Shown here one piece after another: positions 1 to 8,663 of a DNA stretch of 64,000 nt; within the stretch, counting starts at the first letter, position 1, and each line of letters begins with the position of its first letter. Source of the DNA: Polycladomyces zharkentensis. Its GTDB lineage: Bacteria > Bacillota > Bacilli > Thermoactinomycetales > JIR-001. Position numbers and translations under genes: made by a program. The stretch lies in assembly GCF_016938855.1 (NCBI RefSeq), contig NZ_JAFHAP010000006.1:1-64000 (forward strand), read 5' to 3'. The notes under the pieces were generated by a model, which made no database searches, was not told the DNA's origin, and saw only the letters and a list, made by a program, of their open reading frames with translations.

Positions 1-1600
1 AATCGGAGACGGATTCGGGTGTGAGATGTTTGGAGACAATGGTCTGCGGTGCGATTTTGGCAGTGTCGACGGATTGTTCGGCGAGGTGCTCCCGAGAGAC
101 GGCCCCGTTTTGGATATGATGTGACTGGATGGTATTGGGAGCGAGATGGCGCGTATGGACAGCTTGATCCTGGATGTGGGAATCGGAGACGGATTCGGGT
201 GTGAGATGTTCGGAAACGATGGCCTTCGATGCGATTTTGCCAGAAATAACTGCACCGTCAGCCAATTTGTTGCTGTTGACGGCATAATCGATCAGTTTGT
301 CAGTGGAGATGGATTCCGGGGACAACTTGGATGTAGTGATTGAATGATCCGCAATTTTTCCTCCGGTGACGGCATTTTCGGCAAGATGTTGTTCCTGCAC
401 GATCCCTTCCTGAAGATGGTCGGACTCAATCGATCGACGGTGAAGGTGTTTCGAATGAATGCTTTCTTTTTGAATGTGGTGACTTTGTATGGTTTGATCG
501 TCCACCATATCGGACTGAATCGAACGAGGTGCGATTTTGGATTGGGTTACAGCGTTGTCGGCCAAATGATAATCGTGAATGGCACCTGGCTGCACATGTT
601 CGTTGGAGACGGTTTTCCGTTGCAGGTGCTCTGTGGCAATCGAACCAGGAGCGATTTTAGATTGGGTGACGGCATGCTCCGACAGGTGGAACTCGGTAAT
701 GACGTTTTCGGCCAGATGTTTACTGATGATTGCTTGTTCAATAATCGCTTCACTGTGAACAGCTTCAGGTGCGATTTTGGAAGCTGTCACGGAACCATTG
801 GCCAGTTTGGAGGTTGTAACGGATTGATCCGCCAGTTTGGCGTTGGTGATGGATTCGTTGGCCAGCTGTCGAGACTCGATGGAGCCGCTTTTGATTTTGT
901 TTCCGGTAATGGCCTCATCCGCAAGATGGTCGGCTTCCACATGGCCCTTGACCAAGTGCTTGGAAGTGATCGATTTTTCTTTCAGTTTTCTGCCATCAAT
1001 ACTGCGATCAACCAACTTATCTCCCGAGACGCTGTTTTCCTTCAAGTGATCGGATTGAATCGCTTCCCTTCGTATTTTGTCGCTGGTAATGGTATCCGCC
1101 GCAATGTGGAACCCCCGAATTGCACCGGGTGCAATTTTCGGACCGGTAACAGCACCGTTGGCGATCTTGGCCGTGTTGACCGCACCGTCCGCTAAATGAT
1201 CTTCGTTGACGGACTGATTTTGCAGTTTGGATTCGTCAATCGCGCGCCGGGCAATTTTTTCCGCGGTGACCGCACCGTCGGTAATGTCATCCGTGTAGAT
1301 AAAGGCTTTGGACGATTGGGAATGGACGCGTTGTTTTTTTAGTTGTTGGGCGGTTTGTTTTGCTGCGGGTCCGCCGCTTTTGGGAGCGGGGGGGTCATCG
1401 TCGAAAAACGGTGACTCTATCGGCTTTTTGACCATTTCCTTTGCTCTCAGTATTTCTTCCTGTTCTTTTTTTATGATCTCCTCCAACACCTGTTCGTCAG
1501 CCAGTTCACTAAAGTCGCTCGATGGAAAAATCGGTTCCCTTTCCAACAAACGAGGCTGGATTTTTTTGTTGGAGAGGCTATTGGATTTCTTTTTCCTCAT
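1..1600 (-). CDS. Very large decapeptide-repeat protein, 3' end beyond the left edge
   Basis: Read on the minus strand from ATG at 1600, this frame stays open to position 2, giving at least 533 residues. The start has a good ribosome site (AAAGGATGGAG) just upstream; an in-frame ATG at 1612 is less likely. Residues 1-105 are charged and low in complexity (start MRKKKSNSLSNKKIQ). From about residue 107 the protein is an almost perfect 10-residue repeat of the form xx[SA][VI]xxxx[LI]x, for example DGAVNTAKIA, NGAVTGPKIA and NQSVNEDHLA, with about 42 units before the edge. There is no signal peptide or membrane segment in the visible part. The regular small-hydrophobic spacing suggests a beta-solenoid or fibre. 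Long proteins with similar ten-residue repeats and a C-terminal WIAG-tail domain are known in Bacillales; that end is not visible, so the family name is inference. The plus-strand open frames at 146-1195 are shadows of this gene. Confidence 0.85.
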   Translation of the reverse strand, partial: MRKKKSNSLSNKKIQPRLLEREPIFPSSDFSELADEQVLEEIIKKEQEEILRAKEMVKKPIESPFFDDDPPAPKSGGPAAKQTAQQLKKQRVHSQSSKAFIYTDDITDGAVTAEKIARRAIDESKLQNQSVNEDHLADGAVNTAKIANGAVTGPKIAPGAIRGFHIAADTITSDKIRREAIQSDHLKENSVSGDKLVDRSIDGRKLKEKSITSKHLVKGHVEADHLADEAITGNKIKSGSIESRQLANESITNAKLADQSVTTSKLANGSVTASKIAPEAVHSEAIIEQAIISKHLAENVITEFHLSEHAVTQSKIAPGSIATEHLQRKTVSNEHVQPGAIHDYHLADNAVTQSKIAPRSIQSDMVDDQTIQSHHIQKESIHSKHLHRRSIESDHLQEGIVQEQHLAENAVTGGKIADHSITTSKLSPESISTDKLIDYAVNSNKLADGAVISGKIASKAIVSEHLTPESVSDSHIQDQAVHTRHLAPNTIQSHHIQNGAVSREHLAEQSVDTAKIAPQTIVSKHLTPESVSD

Positions 1601-1878
1601 TCGTCTCTCCATCCTTTCGCATATTGAGTCAGTCATCTATAGGTATATTCATCAGGTACAAATGTGGAAACCATTGAACCTAAAAATGGGTGGTAACAAA
1701 TGGTTTGGATTGAAGATATAGGATTAAAATTGAATGATTATACAAATATTTTCTTTCATTAGGTATGAATGGAGTATATTACATAAACCTGGTGTAGCGA
1801 TTTATGTTACCATAGACAAGGATTTTAGGGATATCCTGAAATCTGTAAAAAATGGGAGACGGAGAAAAGGGGGATGTC

Positions 1879-2565: not shown

Positions 2566-2600
2566 AAGCCCTTTGTTCCTGATGAACAAAGGGCTTTTGC
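2566..2600 (+). terminator. Rho-independent terminator after the NlpC/P60 gene
   Basis: A 13-base perfect stem (AAGCCCTTTGTTC with GAACAAAGGGCTT) and a 5-base loop are followed by TTGCTTT. It lies between convergent genes and probably serves both. Confidence 0.9.
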
Positions 2601-2628: not shown

Positions 2629-3096
2629 TCAGTCTGTTACTTCCGAAGGGTCCCAATTGCCGCCTGCCAGCCACAAGGTTGGTTTGCCCGTGGGGCCGCG
2701 GAACAGACGAAACGCCACCAACCCGGAGGAGAAGCACAATTTGAGGCTGGGGGTGTTATCGCAGGCAACGCGGGTATATACTTTTCCCAGTTCGTCCAAT
2801 GCATGCCCGAGCAGGGTTTCCCCGATCCCCTTTTTTCGAAAGGCGGGATGTACGGCGATAATCGATTCGTCCAGCCCGTAGCGCCCAAAGACGATGATGC
2901 CGACAATCCGTTTTTTTTCAAAGGCGATGGAGGCCAGTGTGCCTTCCGGATATTGTTCGTCAGATAGTTGTTGAAGCCAGCGAAGTGCTTTGTGCGTGAT
3001 TCGGTTTTCGCCATATTTCCGAAAAAAAGAGAGGATTTTGAGGCGGTATTGAGATAATTGCCGGGGAGTAAGCATTTGTACATGCACGGTGGTCAT
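2629..3096 (-). CDS. GNAT-family N-acetyltransferase
   Basis: This 155-residue protein has the GNAT fold. The acetyl-CoA pyrophosphate loop is visible at residues 82-95 (VHPAFRKKGIGETLL, the R-x-x-G-x-G motif), and the strand before it (SIAFEKKRIVGIIVFG) is typical. Its start overlaps the end of the upstream YheC/YheD-type gene by 4 bases (ATGA), so it is translated as the last gene of that operon. The substrate is unknown. Its position suggests it modifies something made or handled by the ATP-grasp proteins, perhaps an amino group of a spore-coat component, but that is inference. The last 20 residues contain a Trp-rich stretch (TLWLAGGNWDP) that is not diagnostic. Confidence 0.8.
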   Translation of the reverse strand: MTTVHVQMLTPRQLSQYRLKILSFFRKYGENRITHKALRWLQQLSDEQYPEGTLASIAFEKKRIVGIIVFGRYGLDESIIAVHPAFRKKGIGETLLGHALDELGKVYTRVACDNTPSLKLCFSSGLVAFRLFRGPTGKPTLWLAGGNWDPSEVTD

Positions 3097-4409
3097 GCCT
3101 CCTTGCTTTGCTTGAATCCGCTGAGATAAAGACAGTAATGGATCAACCGGGCCAACGACAGGTGCCGAATGTCCGGTTCGTCGAATTTCATCGGCTTGGC
3201 ATTGGCTTCAAAAAACCATAACCGCCCGTTTTGTTCGATGCCCAGATCCATCGACATTTCTCCCAGGTTGTATCGTCTTTCCGCCTCGATGTGGCGTGCG
3301 ATCTTGAGTGCTGTCTGCTCGATCGTCTCCCGGATCTCAGTTTGGTGATCCCGAAACACTTCCTGCAATACTTCGGAAGCGGGTGCGATGGACCCGCCCA
3401 TGGGAACATGTGTGGAAATGGCGTCCCGGCCGGCAACGCGAATGCCCAGGCCGGTGAATTGCCAACATCCCGTTCCGTCTTTTTGCAACAACAGTCGCAG
3501 ATCAAAGGGTCGGTTGCGGTAAGTGGCCAGGGGGATGCCCTGTTGCAGGATGTATTTTCGTTGATTCGTCAGGGTTTTCAGCAATCGCCACAACGAGTTG
3601 AAATCAGTCCTGTGGTATCGTTTCTTGCCGTTTTGCGATTGATGGATCACTTCATACCTGTTTGGCTCGCGAATGATGCGGATCATATCCAACCCCGCCT
3701 TGCCGTCGACAGGTTTTAAAAACAGAATGGGATGGCGCTGGAATAATTGGCGGCATTCGTTTTCTTTGTCCCATTGGACCGTTTCGGGCAGATAGGGTTG
3801 AGTCTCTTTGGAGTTCACCAGATATTCGTACAGCATCCATTTATCGAAGAAACCGGGGTTAAACAGCCGAATCCCTGGCGTCTCCTGGAAGAATCGGATC
3901 GCGACCTGCTCTTCATGTCGTTGTTCCAAAATGCGGTTGGGGATGCGGTTATATACAATGTTGGGCATGGGCATGGTAGCTGGAATCCATTGAATTTTCT
4001 CCTCATGATCGTCCAACAGGTAACCCTGTACGGTGGGTTCGTGGGGATGGATGCCGCTGGGGGTAACGACGAAAACGGTCACCCCGATTTTGCGACCCAT
4101 CCGGATAATGTCGATAAAATTACGTTTGTTTCCCCGGAAGTCGCGATTCCCGTCGGAGGTGAGGATGGCGACGAACGGTCCGACTCTGTATTCGTCATCG
4201 CTGGTGGGCAACACCCTGGCGGGAGTGTATAGAGTGTTGCCAACGTTGGTTCTTCTCTGTGCGACGGGAATTCTGGCTTTCCAGCCCGTTCCCAAAACAA
4301 CCGACAATTGTTTGGGCAACGGTTTCGGCGAGTAGCGCGGATGTGGGATAAACGCGACGGGAGTGGTCGCATTTTGCCATGCCAACCAACCAGCATTCGC
4401 TAACGCCAC
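3093..4409 (-). CDS. YheC/YheD-family ATP-grasp protein, divergent copy (paralogue 4)
   Basis: 438 residues from a GTG start. It aligns along its length with the three ATP-grasp genes before it: a beta-rich N-terminal region, VGPFVAILTS at about residue 77, VYNRIPNR at 152, the ATP-binding Lys in LKPVDGKAGLD at 231, QKDGTG near 320 and the metal-binding FFEANAKP near 400. The family in B. subtilis (YheC, YheD) is described as endospore-coat associated. In this copy the glycine-rich loop that reads GGSLGLG, GGSHGQG or NGSLGNG in its siblings is DGKAGLD, so nucleotide binding may be altered, although the Glu and Asn metal ligands remain. It lies 15 bases after the previous gene and overlaps the acetyltransferase, so it is in the same operon. 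Confidence 0.85.
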   Translation of the reverse strand: MALANAGWLAWQNATTPVAFIPHPRYSPKPLPKQLSVVLGTGWKARIPVAQRRTNVGNTLYTPARVLPTSDDEYRVGPFVAILTSDGNRDFRGNKRNFIDIIRMGRKIGVTVFVVTPSGIHPHEPTVQGYLLDDHEEKIQWIPATMPMPNIVYNRIPNRILEQRHEEQVAIRFFQETPGIRLFNPGFFDKWMLYEYLVNSKETQPYLPETVQWDKENECRQLFQRHPILFLKPVDGKAGLDMIRIIREPNRYEVIHQSQNGKKRYHRTDFNSLWRLLKTLTNQRKYILQQGIPLATYRNRPFDLRLLLQKDGTGCWQFTGLGIRVAGRDAISTHVPMGGSIAPASEVLQEVFRDHQTEIRETIEQTALKIARHIEAERRYNLGEMSMDLGIEQNGRLWFFEANAKPMKFDEPDIRHLSLARLIHYCLYLSGFKQSKEA

Positions 4410-4424
4410 CGATCAACATCCTCT

Positions 4425-5804
4425 CTACACAAAATTGGCGAGTCTCAAGCTGTATTCCGTGATATACCGGGCCGATTTGCGGCCGGCATCACGCAGGTCG
4501 GGGTGGAGAAAAATGTGGCGTCCCGGCTTGGCGTTGACTTCAAACAGCCATACTTGATGATTTCGATCGACGCCGATGTCCAGTCCCAACTCGCCGAGGG
4601 GACCGTCAATCTGCTCCTCCAGCACTTGCGCGATGCGGATGGAGGCTTCGTGGATTGCTTCTTTGACATACTGCTCCTCATCGCCGAATATCTTTTGCAT
4701 CAGCGTGGATGTCGAAAGCAACTGACCACCGGTACGTACATGGGTGGTCACACTGCCGAAACCGGCCACTTTGGTGCCGATGCCAACCACCTGCCATTGA
4801 CCGGATTTATCTTTGTGCATATGCACACGAAAGTCGACCGGACGGCCTTCATACTTGATCAACCGAATGCCTTGTTGCACCAGATAACGTTCAAAACGGT
4901 GCAATTGCTTGCCGAAATAATATTGGATCAGCTTATCCAGCGAATGGAAACGATGCAGGATATTTTTGTCCCCTTCGCGGAATCGGCAGTAATAGCCGCT
5001 TGTCGGATGCCGGGTGATGCGAAAGATGCCGAGGCCCAAGCTGCCTCCACTGGGCTTGAGATAGACCATTTGGTGCCGGTTCAGCATCTCCTGAATTTGA
5101 TTGATGGAAGGGCAGAGGGCGGATTCGGGGATGAATGGAGCCGTTAGCGGGTGATTGTGGAGCAATTCATGGATGGACCATTTGTTGAAAAATCCTTGGT
5201 TGAAAACCCGGCAATCGGTCAACGATTTCAACCGGTTCAGGCATTGTTGGACGTGAGGCAGCGATTCGGATTTGCGATTGGGTACACGTTCGTAAATCAC
5301 GTCGGGGAAAGGAGACGTCAGGCGTTCCCAGTGGTAGTGTCCCGACTTGTCTTTTCGAAGGAACCAACCATTGATAACGCCGCGCTGCCAATCGATCATT
5401 TCGGGAGTGAAAACATAAAAGTACGGTTTTTCATCCTGTCCGGCGACGAGGAAGTTGCGAAACAACTGTGTTCGGCTGCCGAATGGTGAAGTGATGGAGC
5501 CGGTAAAACCGGTTGTCAGGATGGCGAGGACCGGTCCCAATTTGATGCATCGGTTTTGGAAAGTGACCCGTACCTCGCCAAAGTAAGGTATACTGAGCTG
5601 TCGGGCGGTCGCAACCGGAAGATAAATGATCGGTGCACGCCGCCTGATGCTGATCACCCGCGTGATCAGCATTTTGTTTCCCAAGGAGATTTTGACGGAT
5701 TGCCCGTTGTTGCATCCCCATTTTTCCATCAGCGGTTGTGTGAGGATGACGGCTTCGGTTGGGGCATTGGATAAAGGAAGTATGCGGCAGATAATGGAAC
5801 TCAT
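4425..5804 (-). CDS. YheC/YheD-family ATP-grasp protein (paralogue 3)
   Basis: 459 residues, close to the usual length for YheC/YheD. The N-terminal 90 residues form a double-psi-like beta region that includes NGQSVKISLGNKMLITRVIS. LGPVLAILTTG starts the conserved core, followed by VIYERVPNR, and then the ATP-grasp domain with VYLKPSGGSLGLGIF (P-loop-like lysine and glycine loop), YLVQQGIRL and WLFEVNAKPGRH (metal ligands Glu and Asn). Such proteins join a carboxylate to an amine with ATP; the real substrate of this family is not established. ATG 5804 overlaps the TGA of the upstream paralogue, so the two are translationally coupled. Confidence 0.88.
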   Translation of the reverse strand: MSSIICRILPLSNAPTEAVILTQPLMEKWGCNNGQSVKISLGNKMLITRVISIRRRAPIIYLPVATARQLSIPYFGEVRVTFQNRCIKLGPVLAILTTGFTGSITSPFGSRTQLFRNFLVAGQDEKPYFYVFTPEMIDWQRGVINGWFLRKDKSGHYHWERLTSPFPDVIYERVPNRKSESLPHVQQCLNRLKSLTDCRVFNQGFFNKWSIHELLHNHPLTAPFIPESALCPSINQIQEMLNRHQMVYLKPSGGSLGLGIFRITRHPTSGYYCRFREGDKNILHRFHSLDKLIQYYFGKQLHRFERYLVQQGIRLIKYEGRPVDFRVHMHKDKSGQWQVVGIGTKVAGFGSVTTHVRTGGQLLSTSTLMQKIFGDEEQYVKEAIHEASIRIAQVLEEQIDGPLGELGLDIGVDRNHQVWLFEVNAKPGRHIFLHPDLRDAGRKSARYITEYSLRLANFV

Positions 5805-6925
5805 AGTGACCCTCCTACTTGCCCGTCCAACAGAGCCCGGGCATATCGCATCGGTAACTCAATGGAACGGCGTCGGATTTCTTTCTCACCGGTCAGCAGG
5901 AAAACGCTGCGCCCCGGTTTGGAATTGACCTCCAACAGCCAGACACGGCCCTGGGGATCGACACCGACGTCCAAGCCCACTTCCACCATGCGACCGTGTC
6001 GCGACTCGATCCGTATCGGCACTTGCGTAGACAACCATTGCAATTTCTCGAGGATATGTGTACGAAGTTCCGGGGCATAGTGGCGGGAAAAAAACGCTTC
6101 GGCCTTAACGGCTTTTCCACCCCCGTGAAGATTGGACGTCAGTGTTTGTGGTTTGCCCACGCGGACAGCCATGCCGGTTTGGACCCAATCTCCTCTTTCT
6201 CCTTTTTGCATCAGGATCCGGACGTCGAACGGTCGGCCATCTTTGGTACATAACGGCAGATACGGTTGAACAACATAGCGGGAGCCGTGAGTGAATCGTG
6301 ATATCCACTGCTCCATTTGAGAGCGATTGGCCAAACGGTGATCAAACGTCTGATTGCTGCGTGTACGACCGCGCACGCGAATCCCGTCTTTTCCGGGGAG
6401 GATGGCCGCCACTCCTTGACCGTGACTGCCGCCGTTGGGTTTGATCACCGCGGAACGGTAGCGCCCCAGGATCGTGTATAAATCTTGCATGGTCGTAAGA
6501 CATCGGGTTTCCGGAAGATGAGGTCGAAGATCGGGATCTTCGGCCAGAAACGTATAGGTTTGCCATTTTCCGCCCAGCGGCCGTCCCAAAAGGCGGATCT
6601 GGGGATCGGTGGCAAGTTTGTTGACGTAGGGTTTGTACTCCAGATAGTGACGAGTGTTGGAATAGTAACACCGATCGTAAATCAACATGGGAAGTGGATA
6701 ACACGCAGCGATCCATTGCCCGCGTCGGACGGAATACCGCCAGGCTGAAACCGAACGCCGCGCCCAGTCGACGTCTTTGGGGCAAAAGACGATTACCCGT
6801 ATTCCGAGCTTTTGACCTTCCCGCGTCAATTGTTTGAAATAGGCCGTTTCATGAAAAGGCGGGGTTCCGCGCGTCTTACAAACGGTGATCCCCAGTGTGG
6901 GCGTTTTGACCTGATCACCGTTCAT
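5801..6925 (-). CDS. YheC/YheD-family ATP-grasp protein (short paralogue 2)
   Basis: 374 residues. It lacks the N-terminal beta region of its neighbours and begins almost directly at the core (TPTLGITVCKTRG). The ATP-grasp features are intact: AVIKPNGGSHGQGV, YVVQPYLPLC, RPFDVRILMQKG and VWLLEVNSKPGRS. The C-terminus is Arg-rich. It overlaps both neighbours by 4 bases (ATGA junctions). The short form, next to two long forms, resembles the yheC/yheD pair of Bacillus, where one protein is shorter; assigning either symbol by length alone would be a guess. Proposed role: ATP-dependent ligation during spore coat formation, by family and by the promoter type upstream. Confidence 0.85.
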   Translation of the reverse strand: MNGDQVKTPTLGITVCKTRGTPPFHETAYFKQLTREGQKLGIRVIVFCPKDVDWARRSVSAWRYSVRRGQWIAACYPLPMLIYDRCYYSNTRHYLEYKPYVNKLATDPQIRLLGRPLGGKWQTYTFLAEDPDLRPHLPETRCLTTMQDLYTILGRYRSAVIKPNGGSHGQGVAAILPGKDGIRVRGRTRSNQTFDHRLANRSQMEQWISRFTHGSRYVVQPYLPLCTKDGRPFDVRILMQKGERGDWVQTGMAVRVGKPQTLTSNLHGGGKAVKAEAFFSRHYAPELRTHILEKLQWLSTQVPIRIESRHGRMVEVGLDVGVDPQGRVWLLEVNSKPGRSVFLLTGEKEIRRRSIELPMRYARALLDGQVGGSL

Positions 6926-8358
6926 CGGGATTTCCTCCTGACAGGTTTGGTTTGCGGTGTGCGCTTGATCTTGCGTCGCCCCTCGGCGGCAGAAACCAAA
7001 CCGCAGAGGTGGCAGGTGTAATCAATCAGCCGCGAGACGGACGGCCGGGTGGTCAAAGTGGGATTCGTCACCGTATCGTCAGTCTTGGACGGTTTGGAAT
7101 TGATCTCCAGTAACCACAGTTTTCCCTGAATGTCCAACGCCAGGTCGATTCCCAGTTCTGCGTAATGACCGTCGGCCAACCGTTCAAATGTCTGGGCGAT
7201 CTGTATGGCTTTGGCGCGAAGCTGAGCAAGCGTCGGCTTGTGGGGAACGTGCAGGTTCAGCAACACTTCGCCTGCTTTGTGCAATGTGCCGCCCCGAGCG
7301 AGATTGGACACGATGTCCTGATCGTTGGCGACGCGTCCCACTGTGGACGTGACCGCCCATTCTCCGCGAATGTTCTTTTGCACCAACACGCGAAAATCGA
7401 TTGGACGTCCATCTTTTCTGACCAGTGTCAATCCCTGTTGAATGATGTAGGGAGACCGTCTGATACGTTGTTGCAACCACTTCACCGCTACCGGCACGGA
7501 CCGCAATGTTTGCGTCAGATTGCGCGTTGCAGACGTGTATTGGCAAGTGATGACTCCACCATGGTTGGTGACGCGAAATATGCCGTTTCCCAGGCTGCCA
7601 TTGGTCGGTTTCAGGTACAGACAAGGGTATTTCATCAACATGATCCGCAGGATATTGGGAGAAAAAGGATAAGTTTCAGGTAACATGGTCCGAATTTTCG
7701 GATCCTGTTTCAATATGTCGTATACTTGTTGTTTGTCAAGAAAGCGCTCGTTGAAAATGGAGATATGATGCAGATTGCGCAGACGCTGGATTTTTTTTTG
7801 CAGTTGCGGTTTCGCTTCGATGCGGCGGGAGGTGATCCGGTTGTAAACCACATCGGGCAGTGGAAGCAACGCCTTTTGCCACTGATTTTGCTCGTATATC
7901 CATCCCCGAACCGTTTTGTCCTTCAAGAGGATCTCTTCCGGTCGGAGAACGGTCACGACAACACCGCGATTTTTGCCGGCGAGGATGCATTCCTCCAGAA
8001 AACGGGTCATGGACCCGAAAGGTTGGTCCATTTCGGTTGCCTGAACATCTTGGTTGATCAGGATGCCGAGGATGGGTCCGAACCGCAACACGCGTCCCTT
8101 CGGATCATATCGCGCGTTGGTGGACAATGACTGTGTCAGGTGGAGGTGGTGCGCCAGCGAAGCGCTGATGCGAATCAGAGGGCTTTGGGTTTGGGTCAAT
8201 GCGACGAGACCTGTTCCGGCGGCCGAACCGAAGGCGGTCCAGATGGTGTAATGCTCCAGATGGAGCTTTTGGGCCAGATGACGGCTGATGACCATGTTCA
8301 TCTGCGGGGGAAAGTATCGGTTCGGCACGATTTGAATTTGTACGCGATGTTGCCCCAT
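6922..8358 (-). CDS. YheC/YheD-family ATP-grasp protein (paralogue 1, first gene of the operon)
   Basis: 478 residues when started at ATG 8358, which has AAGGGGATCGTC before it; the open frame reaches back to 8487 without a ribosome site. The N-terminal beta region contains VQIQIVPNRYFPPQMN. Core motifs are LRFGPILGILIN, VVYNRITSRR, LYLKPTNGSLGNGIFRV, YIIQQGLTL, RPIDFRVLVQKN and LWLLEINSKPS. The tail is strongly basic (GRRKIKRTPQTKPVRRKSR), which could bind an acidic polymer or nucleic acid. It is the promoter-proximal gene of a five-gene operon; a sigma-K-like promoter lies 32 bases upstream of the start. Confidence 0.88.
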   Translation of the reverse strand: MGQHRVQIQIVPNRYFPPQMNMVISRHLAQKLHLEHYTIWTAFGSAAGTGLVALTQTQSPLIRISASLAHHLHLTQSLSTNARYDPKGRVLRFGPILGILINQDVQATEMDQPFGSMTRFLEECILAGKNRGVVVTVLRPEEILLKDKTVRGWIYEQNQWQKALLPLPDVVYNRITSRRIEAKPQLQKKIQRLRNLHHISIFNERFLDKQQVYDILKQDPKIRTMLPETYPFSPNILRIMLMKYPCLYLKPTNGSLGNGIFRVTNHGGVITCQYTSATRNLTQTLRSVPVAVKWLQQRIRRSPYIIQQGLTLVRKDGRPIDFRVLVQKNIRGEWAVTSTVGRVANDQDIVSNLARGGTLHKAGEVLLNLHVPHKPTLAQLRAKAIQIAQTFERLADGHYAELGIDLALDIQGKLWLLEINSKPSKTDDTVTNPTLTTRPSVSRLIDYTCHLCGLVSAAEGRRKIKRTPQTKPVRRKSR

Positions 8359-8389
8359 GACGATCCCCTTCCGCTGTATTTGGCTAATG

Positions 8390-8417
8390 TATCGTATGTA
8401 GGCATGTATATGCGGGT
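8390..8417 (-). promoter_or_regulatory. Sigma-K-like promoter of the ATP-grasp operon
   Basis: On the minus strand the sequence reads AC, then 17 bases, then CATACGATA. This equals the described sigma-K pattern (AC, 16-17 bases, CATAnnnTA). It ends 32 bases before the ATG at 8358. The rest of 8359-8663 shows nothing I recognise apart from the ribosome site of the next gene. Confidence 0.55.
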
Positions 8418-8663
8418 GAAAAAAAGGGGCTTGCCTATCAGACAACCTGCACGTGCGGAGAGGGGCTTTGTCTCGTCCGGCAAACACGTTACAATGATAG
8501 AGAAGTGACCAGGGTGTGTCCGGTCAATCATCCATAAGGCGCCAACACGTTCGAACCCAGTCGGTTTCCTTTCAGGGCGCAGGTTTGTAAAGCCGGGACA
8601 GGTGATGGACCATATTCATCGGACACGCTCAAAACCAGGAAAAGATCGGGAGGGAACATCACA

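Follow-up and report, generated by a model that had tools for sequence, protein, structure and literature searches.

What do four adjacent ATP-grasp genes of the YheC/YheD type and an acetyltransferase gene do together, and is the arrangement peculiar to one bacterium? The window analysed here is the stretch of 64,000 nucleotides at positions 1-64,000 of the forward strand of Polycladomyces zharkentensis contig NZ_JAFHAP010000006.1 (GCF_016938855.1). On its minus strand, from 8358 to 2629, it carries four PF14398 (YheC/YheD) ATP-grasp genes, here called A to D, and then a GNAT gene (Table 1). Neighbouring genes overlap by 4 bases (A/B, B/C and D/GNAT), with a single 15-base gap between C and D. 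The PF14398 scores are 245, 254, 279 and 261 bits for A, B, C and D (cut-off 26.8), so that coordinates and Pfam scores confirm the original prediction of four tandem paralogues ending in a GNAT gene.

The longest reading frame of gene A begins at 8487, but in 65 of 67 A proteins the start aligns with the methionine at 8358. The basic tail of A recurs, with at least four Lys/Arg among the last 10 residues in 57/67. The N-terminal domains of A and C (residues ~1-95) had no Pfam match; from the order of their strands we suspect a candidate double-psi beta-barrel. The last protein matches Acetyltransf_1 (PF00583) at 33.8 bits (cut-off 20.7) and had no match among solved structures at E 0.01. It contains the acetyl-CoA motif of the GNAT family, R/Q-x-x-G-x-G/A, as RKKGIG; among 59 relatives the R is present in 59, the first G in 42, and the last position is G in 50 or A in 9.

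Table 1. Features of the cluster (window coordinates)
Feature	Position	Strand	Description
Sigma-K-type promoter	8390..8418	-	CACC (8418-8415), 16-nt spacer, CATACGATA (8398-8390)
Ribosome-binding site of A	8365..8370	-	AAGGGG; direct reading
Gene A	6922..8358	-	478 aa; N-terminal beta-rich domain, YheCD ATP-grasp, Arg/Lys-rich C-terminal tail; clade A
Gene B	5801..6925	-	374 aa; YheCD ATP-grasp without N-terminal domain; clade B
Gene C	4425..5804	-	459 aa; N-terminal domain and YheCD ATP-grasp; clade C
Gene D	3093..4409	-	438 aa, GTG start; N-terminal region and YheCD ATP-grasp, altered glycine loop
GNAT-family N-acetyltransferase	2629..3096	-	155 aa; Acetyltransf_1 (PF00583)
Terminator-like hairpin	2566..2596	+	separates GNAT from the convergent NlpC/P60 gene; 13 pairs, with the T-rich tail on the + strand

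Four orthologous clades in a conserved order

Phylogenetic analysis by maximum likelihood (IQ-TREE; 103 sequences from 29 loci) resolves the four positions as four orthologous clades, with UFBoot values of 99, 100, 100 and 93 for A, B, C and D, and places clade D as the sister of clade C. In a larger FastTree run (368 sequences) the support was only 0.624 for clade C and 0.716 for D. Gene position matches the corresponding clade for A and B in 64, and for C and D in 63, of 64 four-gene loci. A local expansion in the P. zharkentensis genome was ruled out because the four positions are old clades common to distant families.

The set A-B-C-D is intact, in the same order and with similarly tight spacing, in 38 of the 40 genomes of the same order whose loci were read; in the other two, B is split in two frames (L041) or the contig starts inside B (L052). 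The GNAT gene follows D in 40/40, shortened to 82 aa in one. Outside these 40 loci, one genome of the order (G031) has only three PF14398 matches, the best at E 2.6e-59. The four-gene form with its GNAT gene is thus kept in close relatives. The order A-B-C-D also recurs in many Bacilli, and relatives in Brevibacillus and Thermoactinomyces retain all four genes. The choice of loci was not random but followed the strongest PF14398 matches or similarity to C, and L092-L114 and L122 were excluded from the tree and promoter counts because their contigs have the same lengths as those of genomes already included.

Departures from the full set are found at the locus itself, although the remaining members could sit elsewhere in those genomes: in two Bacillus-type genomes, with yheA- and yheB-like genes adjoining, the locus is limited to a B of 363 aa and a C of 452 aa, C stands alone in three genera, and A, C and D occur in one. 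At five loci D accompanies two or three other paralogues, and in one of these (L156) IQ-TREE groups another gene with C. The GNAT gene lies directly downstream of D at 67 of 88 D-bearing loci and is absent there in 21, counting both copies of two contigs (L115/L146 and L120/L147), which were also kept in the 98-locus pattern counts.

Genes of the YtpI and YtrH types recur as neighbours of the cluster, as do three families that match no Pfam entry. A Brevibacillus repeat protein was considered as a common substrate and had no match in the P. zharkentensis genome, although the blank of one genome shows little. Elsewhere in this genome, there is a fusion of one PF14398 paralogue with a GT4 glycosyltransferase, and two more paralogues each have a HipA-like kinase as partner.

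A sigma-K-type promoter sequence upstream of A

About 40 nt upstream of A is a sigma-K-type promoter sequence, CACC-N16-CATANNNT. The search patterns were built on the consensus letters for sigma-K. Element lengths and spacing were taken from PMC517825. Upstream of A, the loose pattern was found at 64/65 loci and the strict pattern at 57/65, two of the 67 A genes (L081 and L086) having been dropped as their starts were misaligned. In random windows from the same loci, the loose pattern occurred in 257/13,000 (2%) and the strict one in 54/13,000, and the loose pattern preceded neighbouring gene families in 2/43, 1/23, 0/21, 0/40 and 0/27 cases. A sigma-K-type motif was present in 13 of 15 further loci, scanned over 400 nt with the start unfixed and with the repeats L115/L146 and L120/L147 included. 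A ribosome-binding sequence (AAGGGG, GGAGG or AGGAG) lies within 25 nt before A at 62/65 loci.

Upstream of A, a sigma-E-type -35 element was identified at 1/65 loci and a SpoIIID-like GGACA at 3/65, below the shuffled expectation (10.65). There is also a weak sigma-70-like site (9/12) at 8522-8494, in a region where such sites are over-represented (11 observed versus 4.6 expected). Terminator-like hairpins are not commoner in the region than in shuffles (7 versus 8.0). The promoter of A looks spore-specific. A promoter common to A and to the downstream repeat protein (window 1-1636) was rejected, since the motif precedes only 2/25 such genes at 24 loci. Among the other PF14398 genes of the genome, a sigma-K-type motif was found in 1/6 upstream regions, that of the PanD-like gene.

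Active sites and predicted folds

The original prediction called the four proteins different ligase-like enzymes, and both their active sites and the RimK-like folds of the models of A and C support this. The ATP-binding lysine, D-x-R and the metal-binding E-x-N are kept at 97-100% in each of the four clades and are present in all four window proteins. Each clade also carries its own active-site signature; for instance, the commonest residues of the glycine loop are K-P-x-x-G-K-A-G in D and K-P-x-x-G-S-L-G in A and C.

Folds were modelled for A and C, from alignments of 44 and 30 chosen sequences (pLDDT 88.4 and 93.4). The best structural matches of the two models are RimK, LysX/ArgX and glutathione synthetase. 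RimK, the poly-glutamate ligase of ribosomal protein S6, and LysX/ArgX are the nearest solved folds over residues ~91-458, with Z of 20.8-21.6 for RimK and at most 20.7 for LysX/ArgX. The VIA-align Z to RimK is 21.5 for A (rmsd 2.9, 274 aligned) and 21.6 for C (rmsd 3.1, 274 aligned), and the best LysX/ArgX and glutathione synthetase chains reach 20.7 and 20.7 for A, and 20.1 and 19.8 for C. However, identity is 14-21% in the aligned parts, and A and C have the extra N-terminal beta-rich domain. No protein of A-D exceeded the cut-off of any NCBIfam ligase model, including that of the RimK family (C against TIGR02291, 18.4 bits versus 314.2).

The best 50 chains listed for C are RimK, LysX/ArgX, glutathione synthetase and TTL/TTLL; many are titled as tubulin complexes, whose F chain we take to be TTL. 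Tubulin tyrosine ligase comes after the other three (Z 18.5). Like TTL and the TTLL polyglutamylases (Z ~18 with C), the window proteins would be ATP-grasp ligases of protein tails, and weak profile matches (E 0.04-0.13) fall mostly around the E-x-N motif; but the TTL/TTLL enzymes are eukaryotic, identity is low and the sequence match is non-significant. The fold alone is no proof of a ligase, because A also aligns with synapsin and inositol kinases at Z 17.4-18.6.

Sporulation and the Bacillus yheC-yheD pair

Spore-wall or capsule roles were reportedly predicted for the PF14398 family by Iyer et al. 2009 (Mol. BioSyst.), and are said to be predicted in the Pfam note. In 200 genomes of the class, counted as genomes and not as independent events, PF14398 (with paralogues outside the cluster included) and SpoIVA were both found in 136, PF14398 only in 5 (including one match below the family cut-off, G145), SpoIVA only in 12 (including one broken remnant, G043) and neither in 47. 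Since 12 of the 148 genomes with a SpoIVA match lack PF14398, one of them having a remnant, the family is dispensable for sporulation as such. Anoxybacillus flavithermus is described as having no yheD (PMC3533761).

At the two loci beside yheA-/yheB-like genes, the first gene falls within clade B and the second within clade C. With just these two members present at such Bacillus-type loci, B very probably corresponds to YheC and C very probably to YheD, orthology being judged through these loci. In B. subtilis, yheA and yheB adjoin yheC and yheD; this gene order and the YheC and YheD lengths served as background to the assignment. The usual two genes in Bacillus, as originally stated, fit these two loci. 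The notion of a four-gene expansion beyond Bacillus had to be given up, as the four-gene form is widespread and the Bacillus-type loci are a subset of it. The set of A-D and GNAT is old and widely conserved, and Bacillus appears to retain no more of it than the two genes in the middle.

Across 75 compared loci, a yheB-like gene (DUF445) occurs in 22 and a yheA-like gene (YlbF-type) in 21. The window set shares PF14398 with yheC-yheD but comprises four genes and a GNAT gene rather than two, and its divergent neighbours are ytkL- and ytoI-like genes, not yheA/yheB. Unlike its sigma-K-type promoter sequence, the control of yheC and yheD in B. subtilis is that of the sigma-E regulon, raised by SpoIIID, according to PMC517825. 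YheD is a B. subtilis coat protein that forms a shell round the spore and interacts strongly with itself; two-hybrid tests found no direct contact with SpoIVA or other morphogenetic proteins (PMC7911427). Its localisation is reported to be SpoIVA-dependent (PMC7769602).

Proposed function and alternatives

We favour, with a probability of about 0.6, a sporulation operon that would be transcribed late in the mother cell and whose products, four RimK-like ligases that have sub-functionalised and a single acetyltransferase, would act at the spore surface. We infer expression in sporulation, amide-ligase chemistry, a spore-surface substrate and the role of the GNAT. Every one of the four ATP-grasp enzymes would use ATP to activate a carboxylate as an acyl phosphate, to be joined to an amine as in RimK and LysX. 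The likely acceptors would be spore-surface proteins or peptides, so that coat material would gain amino acids or short peptides through A-D, while the GNAT may acetylate a free amine of the precursor or product. The four enzymes are not redundant copies, since each lineage is old and has a distinct active-site signature. The set is likely either to decorate the spore surface or to make part of it.

Constant order and tight packing in distant lineages, together with four distinct signatures and kept catalytic residues, would also suit an assembly line in which A, B, C and D take successive turns on one short non-ribosomal peptide or graft, with one bond formed by each enzyme and a cap added by the GNAT. 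A strict four-step pathway is weakened because there are loci with B and C, with C alone and with A, C and D, as well as D among other paralogues and clusters without the GNAT, and we consider this scheme unlikely. More probably, A-D differ in the acceptors or positions that they modify and do not depend on one another as links of an A-B-C-D chain. Of the original proposal of an operon for building or tailoring a peptide, possibly for the spore coat, the distinct ligase-like enzymes and the tight unit hold, the sporulation-type promoter sequence lends support, and stepwise building of one product becomes only one option.

Kinase activity, or synthesis of a coat polysaccharide, would accord with the GT4-fused and HipA-paired paralogues and with the fold shared by inositol kinases. 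Yet the best RimK, LysX/ArgX and glutathione synthetase chains outrank kinases for A, the best 50 chains listed for C are all ligases of the kinds named above, and no glycosyltransferase or kinase is among the annotated recurrent neighbour families (several families have no Pfam match); we regard this reading as quite improbable. It is very improbable, in our judgement, that the proteins are mainly structural, ATP binding or hydrolysis driving coat assembly with no new bond: the YheD shell and self-interaction described in PMC7911427 and the basic tail of A agree with it, but E-x-N, D-x-R and the ATP lysine, so constant in four clades, are not obviously required by assembly alone.

Significance

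The kind of enzyme and its general role are already known; for the four-gene set with a sigma-K-type promoter, we found no description in the open-licence literature. Tentatively, and with more doubt than confidence, the set may build peptides or tail proteins specifically in spores, with four ancient specificities, and so modify the spore surface across many Bacilli that form spores; the YheC/YheD pair of B. subtilis would then be what is left of it after reduction. In the best-studied spore former, YheD is described as a coat protein whose function has yet to be assigned (PMC7911427). On comparative grounds, its gene very probably belongs to a group of four ligases that are old, conserved separately from one another and apparently active, which would turn its role into a testable question of enzymology. 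B. subtilis may therefore be ill suited to a study of the complete system, all four members of which are retained by relatives in Brevibacillus and Thermoactinomyces.

Organization and conservation of the cluster

The window was predicted to carry an operon of four YheC/YheD ATP-grasp paralogues ending in a GNAT enzyme; the open frames, their spacing and the Pfam matches confirm this description and its coordinates. The proteins of genes A, B, C and D match PF14398 (ATPgrasp_YheCD) with 245-279 bits (cut-off 26.8), and the last protein matches Acetyltransf_1 with 33.8 bits (cut-off 20.7). Genes A/B, B/C and D/GNAT overlap by 4 bases, and a 15-base gap separates C from D. The longest frame of A begins at 8487; in the alignment, 65 of 67 A proteins start at the position of the Met at 8358. 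At least four of the last ten residues are Lys or Arg in 57/67 A proteins, with a tail of variable length (about 6925-6984 in the window).

Features of the cluster and its flanks in the window
Feature	Position	Strand	Description
Five same-direction open frames	8358 to 2629	minus	A, B, C, D, GNAT
Gene A	start 8358	minus	478 aa
Gene B		minus	374 aa
Gene C		minus	459 aa
Gene D		minus	438 aa, GTG start
GNAT gene		minus	155 aa, last of five
Sigma-K-type promoter	8418-8390	minus	CACC-N16-CATACGATA, ~40 nt before A start
Long repeat protein	1-1636	minus	start only, cut by contig end; no Pfam match

At least one PF14398 match occurs in 56 of the 61 genomes of the relatives search (source genome included), and loci were read in 52 of the other 55 (all except G031, G055 and G056). 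The four-gene form and its GNAT gene, proposed from the window alone, are kept in relatives: A-B-C-D is whole and in order in 38/40 same-order genomes read, the exceptions being L041, with B in two frames, and L052, whose contig starts inside B, and every one of the 40 has a GNAT gene after D, in L078 a shortened one. Only three PF14398 matches (best E 2.6e-59) were obtained in G031, from the same order. A larger count of 98 loci combined relatives, named loci from Brevibacillus and other taxa, and a broader sample of the class; it includes two Brevibacillus contigs twice and five other paralogues, four of them source-genome stretches. It gave A-B-C-D in 72, A-B-C-D plus an extra paralogue in 6, A-B-C-D with B in two frames in 2, B-C-D at a contig edge in 1 and other patterns in 17. 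The complete set occurs in named genera such as Thermoactinomyces, Laceyella, Shimazuella, Melghirimyces, Kroppenstedtia and Brevibacillus.

B is split in two distant genomes (L041 and L145), both with intact A and C genes; D is intact in L041 and short, at 255 aa, in L145. Seven loci (L148, L150, L151, L152, L157, L079 and L080) have an extra PF14398 gene (360-394 aa) after D, at 30 bp in L150 and about 450-770 bp in the other six; it is sister to clade B in an IQ-TREE run that included four of them (all except L079, L148 and L150).

GNAT is the commonest same-strand neighbour (53/75 loci). With a more sensitive profile, 67 of 88 loci have it immediately downstream of D; loci where no GNAT was detected beside D include several from Brevibacillus and some more distant ones. 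The divergent upstream genes are ytkL-, yheB- or yheA-like, differing by lineage, and YtpI- and YtrH-type genes recur farther away. Upstream, past the divergent genes, lie a YtrH-type sporulation gene in L043 (103-429) and five other loci and a YtpI-type gene in 20 loci; thus, several spore-related genes share the area of the cluster. Of the 75 loci, 24 (counting the window) have relatives of the window's repeat protein downstream. A Brevibacillus repeat protein (IFxPGFAGTNVQEVR-like) lies downstream on the same strand in L115 (12902-13519) and 13 other Brevibacillus loci, and is possibly a coat protein or substrate.

Four lineages of predicted ligases

In a tree of 287 proteins the genes form four separate clades by position (supports 0.962, 0.995, 0.987 and 0.831). 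Position matches clade in 64/64, 64/64, 63/64 and 63/64 four-gene loci for genes one to four; in the odd locus, L085, the third gene groups with D and the fourth with none. Supports for A, B, C and D were 0.985, 0.997, 0.624 and 0.716 in a tree of 368 proteins, and ultrafast bootstraps were 99, 100, 100 and 93 with IQ-TREE (103 sequences, 29 loci), where clade C takes in one added gene of L156 and C and D are sisters (99). These phylogenies indicate that positions A-D are four old lineages.

We took as assumed background the yheA-yheB neighbourhood of yheC/yheD in B. subtilis and the lengths of YheC and YheD. Two genomes have only two PF14398 genes at the locus, beside yheB-like (DUF445) and yheA-like (YlbF type) genes, and their proteins fall in clade B (363 aa) and clade C (452 aa). 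Locus tags in a passage of PMC517825 place B. subtilis yheC and yheD side by side. Taken together, YheC very probably corresponds to B and YheD to C. Loss of A and D would be the simplest account of the Bacillus-type pair.

In all four clades, conservation is 97-100% for the glycine-loop Lys that binds ATP, 98-100% for the D-x-R pair and 97-100% for the metal-liganding E-x-N; the glycine loop is altered in clade D. Just after E-x-N, clade A has S-K-P-S-K, clade B S-K-P-G-R (first K 72%), clade C S/A-K-P-G-R and clade D A-K-P-M-K (M 67%). Kept catalytic residues and clade-specific signatures together fit four working enzymes with different substrates. Predicted models of A and C are confident (pLDDT 88.4 and 93.4), and their nearest solved fold is RimK (A, Z 21.5, rmsd 2.9; C, Z 21.6, rmsd 3.1; 274 residues each), with LysX/ArgX and glutathione synthetase among the closest. 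Synapsin and inositol kinases reach Z 17.4-18.6 against A, and tubulin tyrosine ligase about 18 against C. By sequence search, the sole solved relatives below E 0.01 were glutathione synthetases, spanning 46 profile positions.

Promoter and link to sporulation

The element upstream of A was typed by what we take to be the sigma-K consensus letters. Within 130 nt upstream of A, 64/65 loci contain the pattern AC-N14-18-CATANNNT (shuffles: mean 3.15) and 57/65 a stricter form, the loci being related and the trials not independent. Random 130-nt windows from the same loci gave 257/13,000 (loose) and 54/13,000 (strict), and the loose pattern precedes 2/43 ytkL-like, 1/23 yheB-like, 0/21 yheA-like, 0/40 ytoI-like and 0/27 NlpC-like neighbours. 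Beyond AC, CATA and T, which the pattern itself sets, aligned matches have C before AC (89%), C after AC (89%), A before T (84%) and A after T (75%). A passage of PMC517825 describes sigma-K promoters as having a 5-nt -35 and a 10-nt -10 separated by 14-16 nt. No such element was found in the 260 nt before B in either Bacillus-type B-C locus, in line with the sigma-E control of yheC/yheD in B. subtilis (excerpt of PMC517825). Upstream of A, a weak sigma-70-like site at 8522-8494 may be a second promoter.

Across 200 class genomes, 136 have both PF14398 and the sporulation protein SpoIVA, 5 PF14398 only, 12 SpoIVA only and 47 neither. In the nearer sample of 61, SpoIVA is present in 56/56 genomes with PF14398; the other five comprise three genomes with no SpoIVA, one with a broken remnant, and G051 (84% complete), in which SpoIVA is present.

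Other PF14398 genes in the genus

The source genome has nine PF14398 matches, against 24 and 16 in G001 and G002 of the same genus, where many of the genes are short, some are clustered and a few have internal stop codons; this looks like a young, fast-changing expansion. On contig C8 of the source genome, a PF14398 ATP-grasp domain is fused to a GT4 glycosyltransferase (L138, 6268-8514; 748 aa), which suggests a link of the family to glycan synthesis. On the same contig, a PF14398 gene is paired with a HipA_2-type kinase gene twice in tandem (L137, 6733-11057); a search of the other two genomes from the genus gave no HipA_2 match. On C17, the gene for a PanD-like aspartate decarboxylase shares 4 bases with a short PF14398 gene (L140, 6543-7774), possibly a beta-alanine ligase pair.

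Predicted function

A spore-coat role for YheC/YheD-type ATP-grasps, reportedly predicted by Iyer et al. in 2009, is already known as a general idea. The open-licence literature searched yielded no report of the four-lineage set, its sigma-K-type promoter or the reduction to B and C in Bacillus-type genomes. An excerpt of PMC7911427 places YheD in a shell in the spore coat.

The four enzymes might work in fixed order as one A-B-C-D chain; we consider this unlikely, and partial sets of A-D favour enzymes acting apart. Our preferred reading, to which we give a probability of roughly 0.6, is that the four enzymes are RimK-like ligases and act late, in the mother cell, on spore-surface material.
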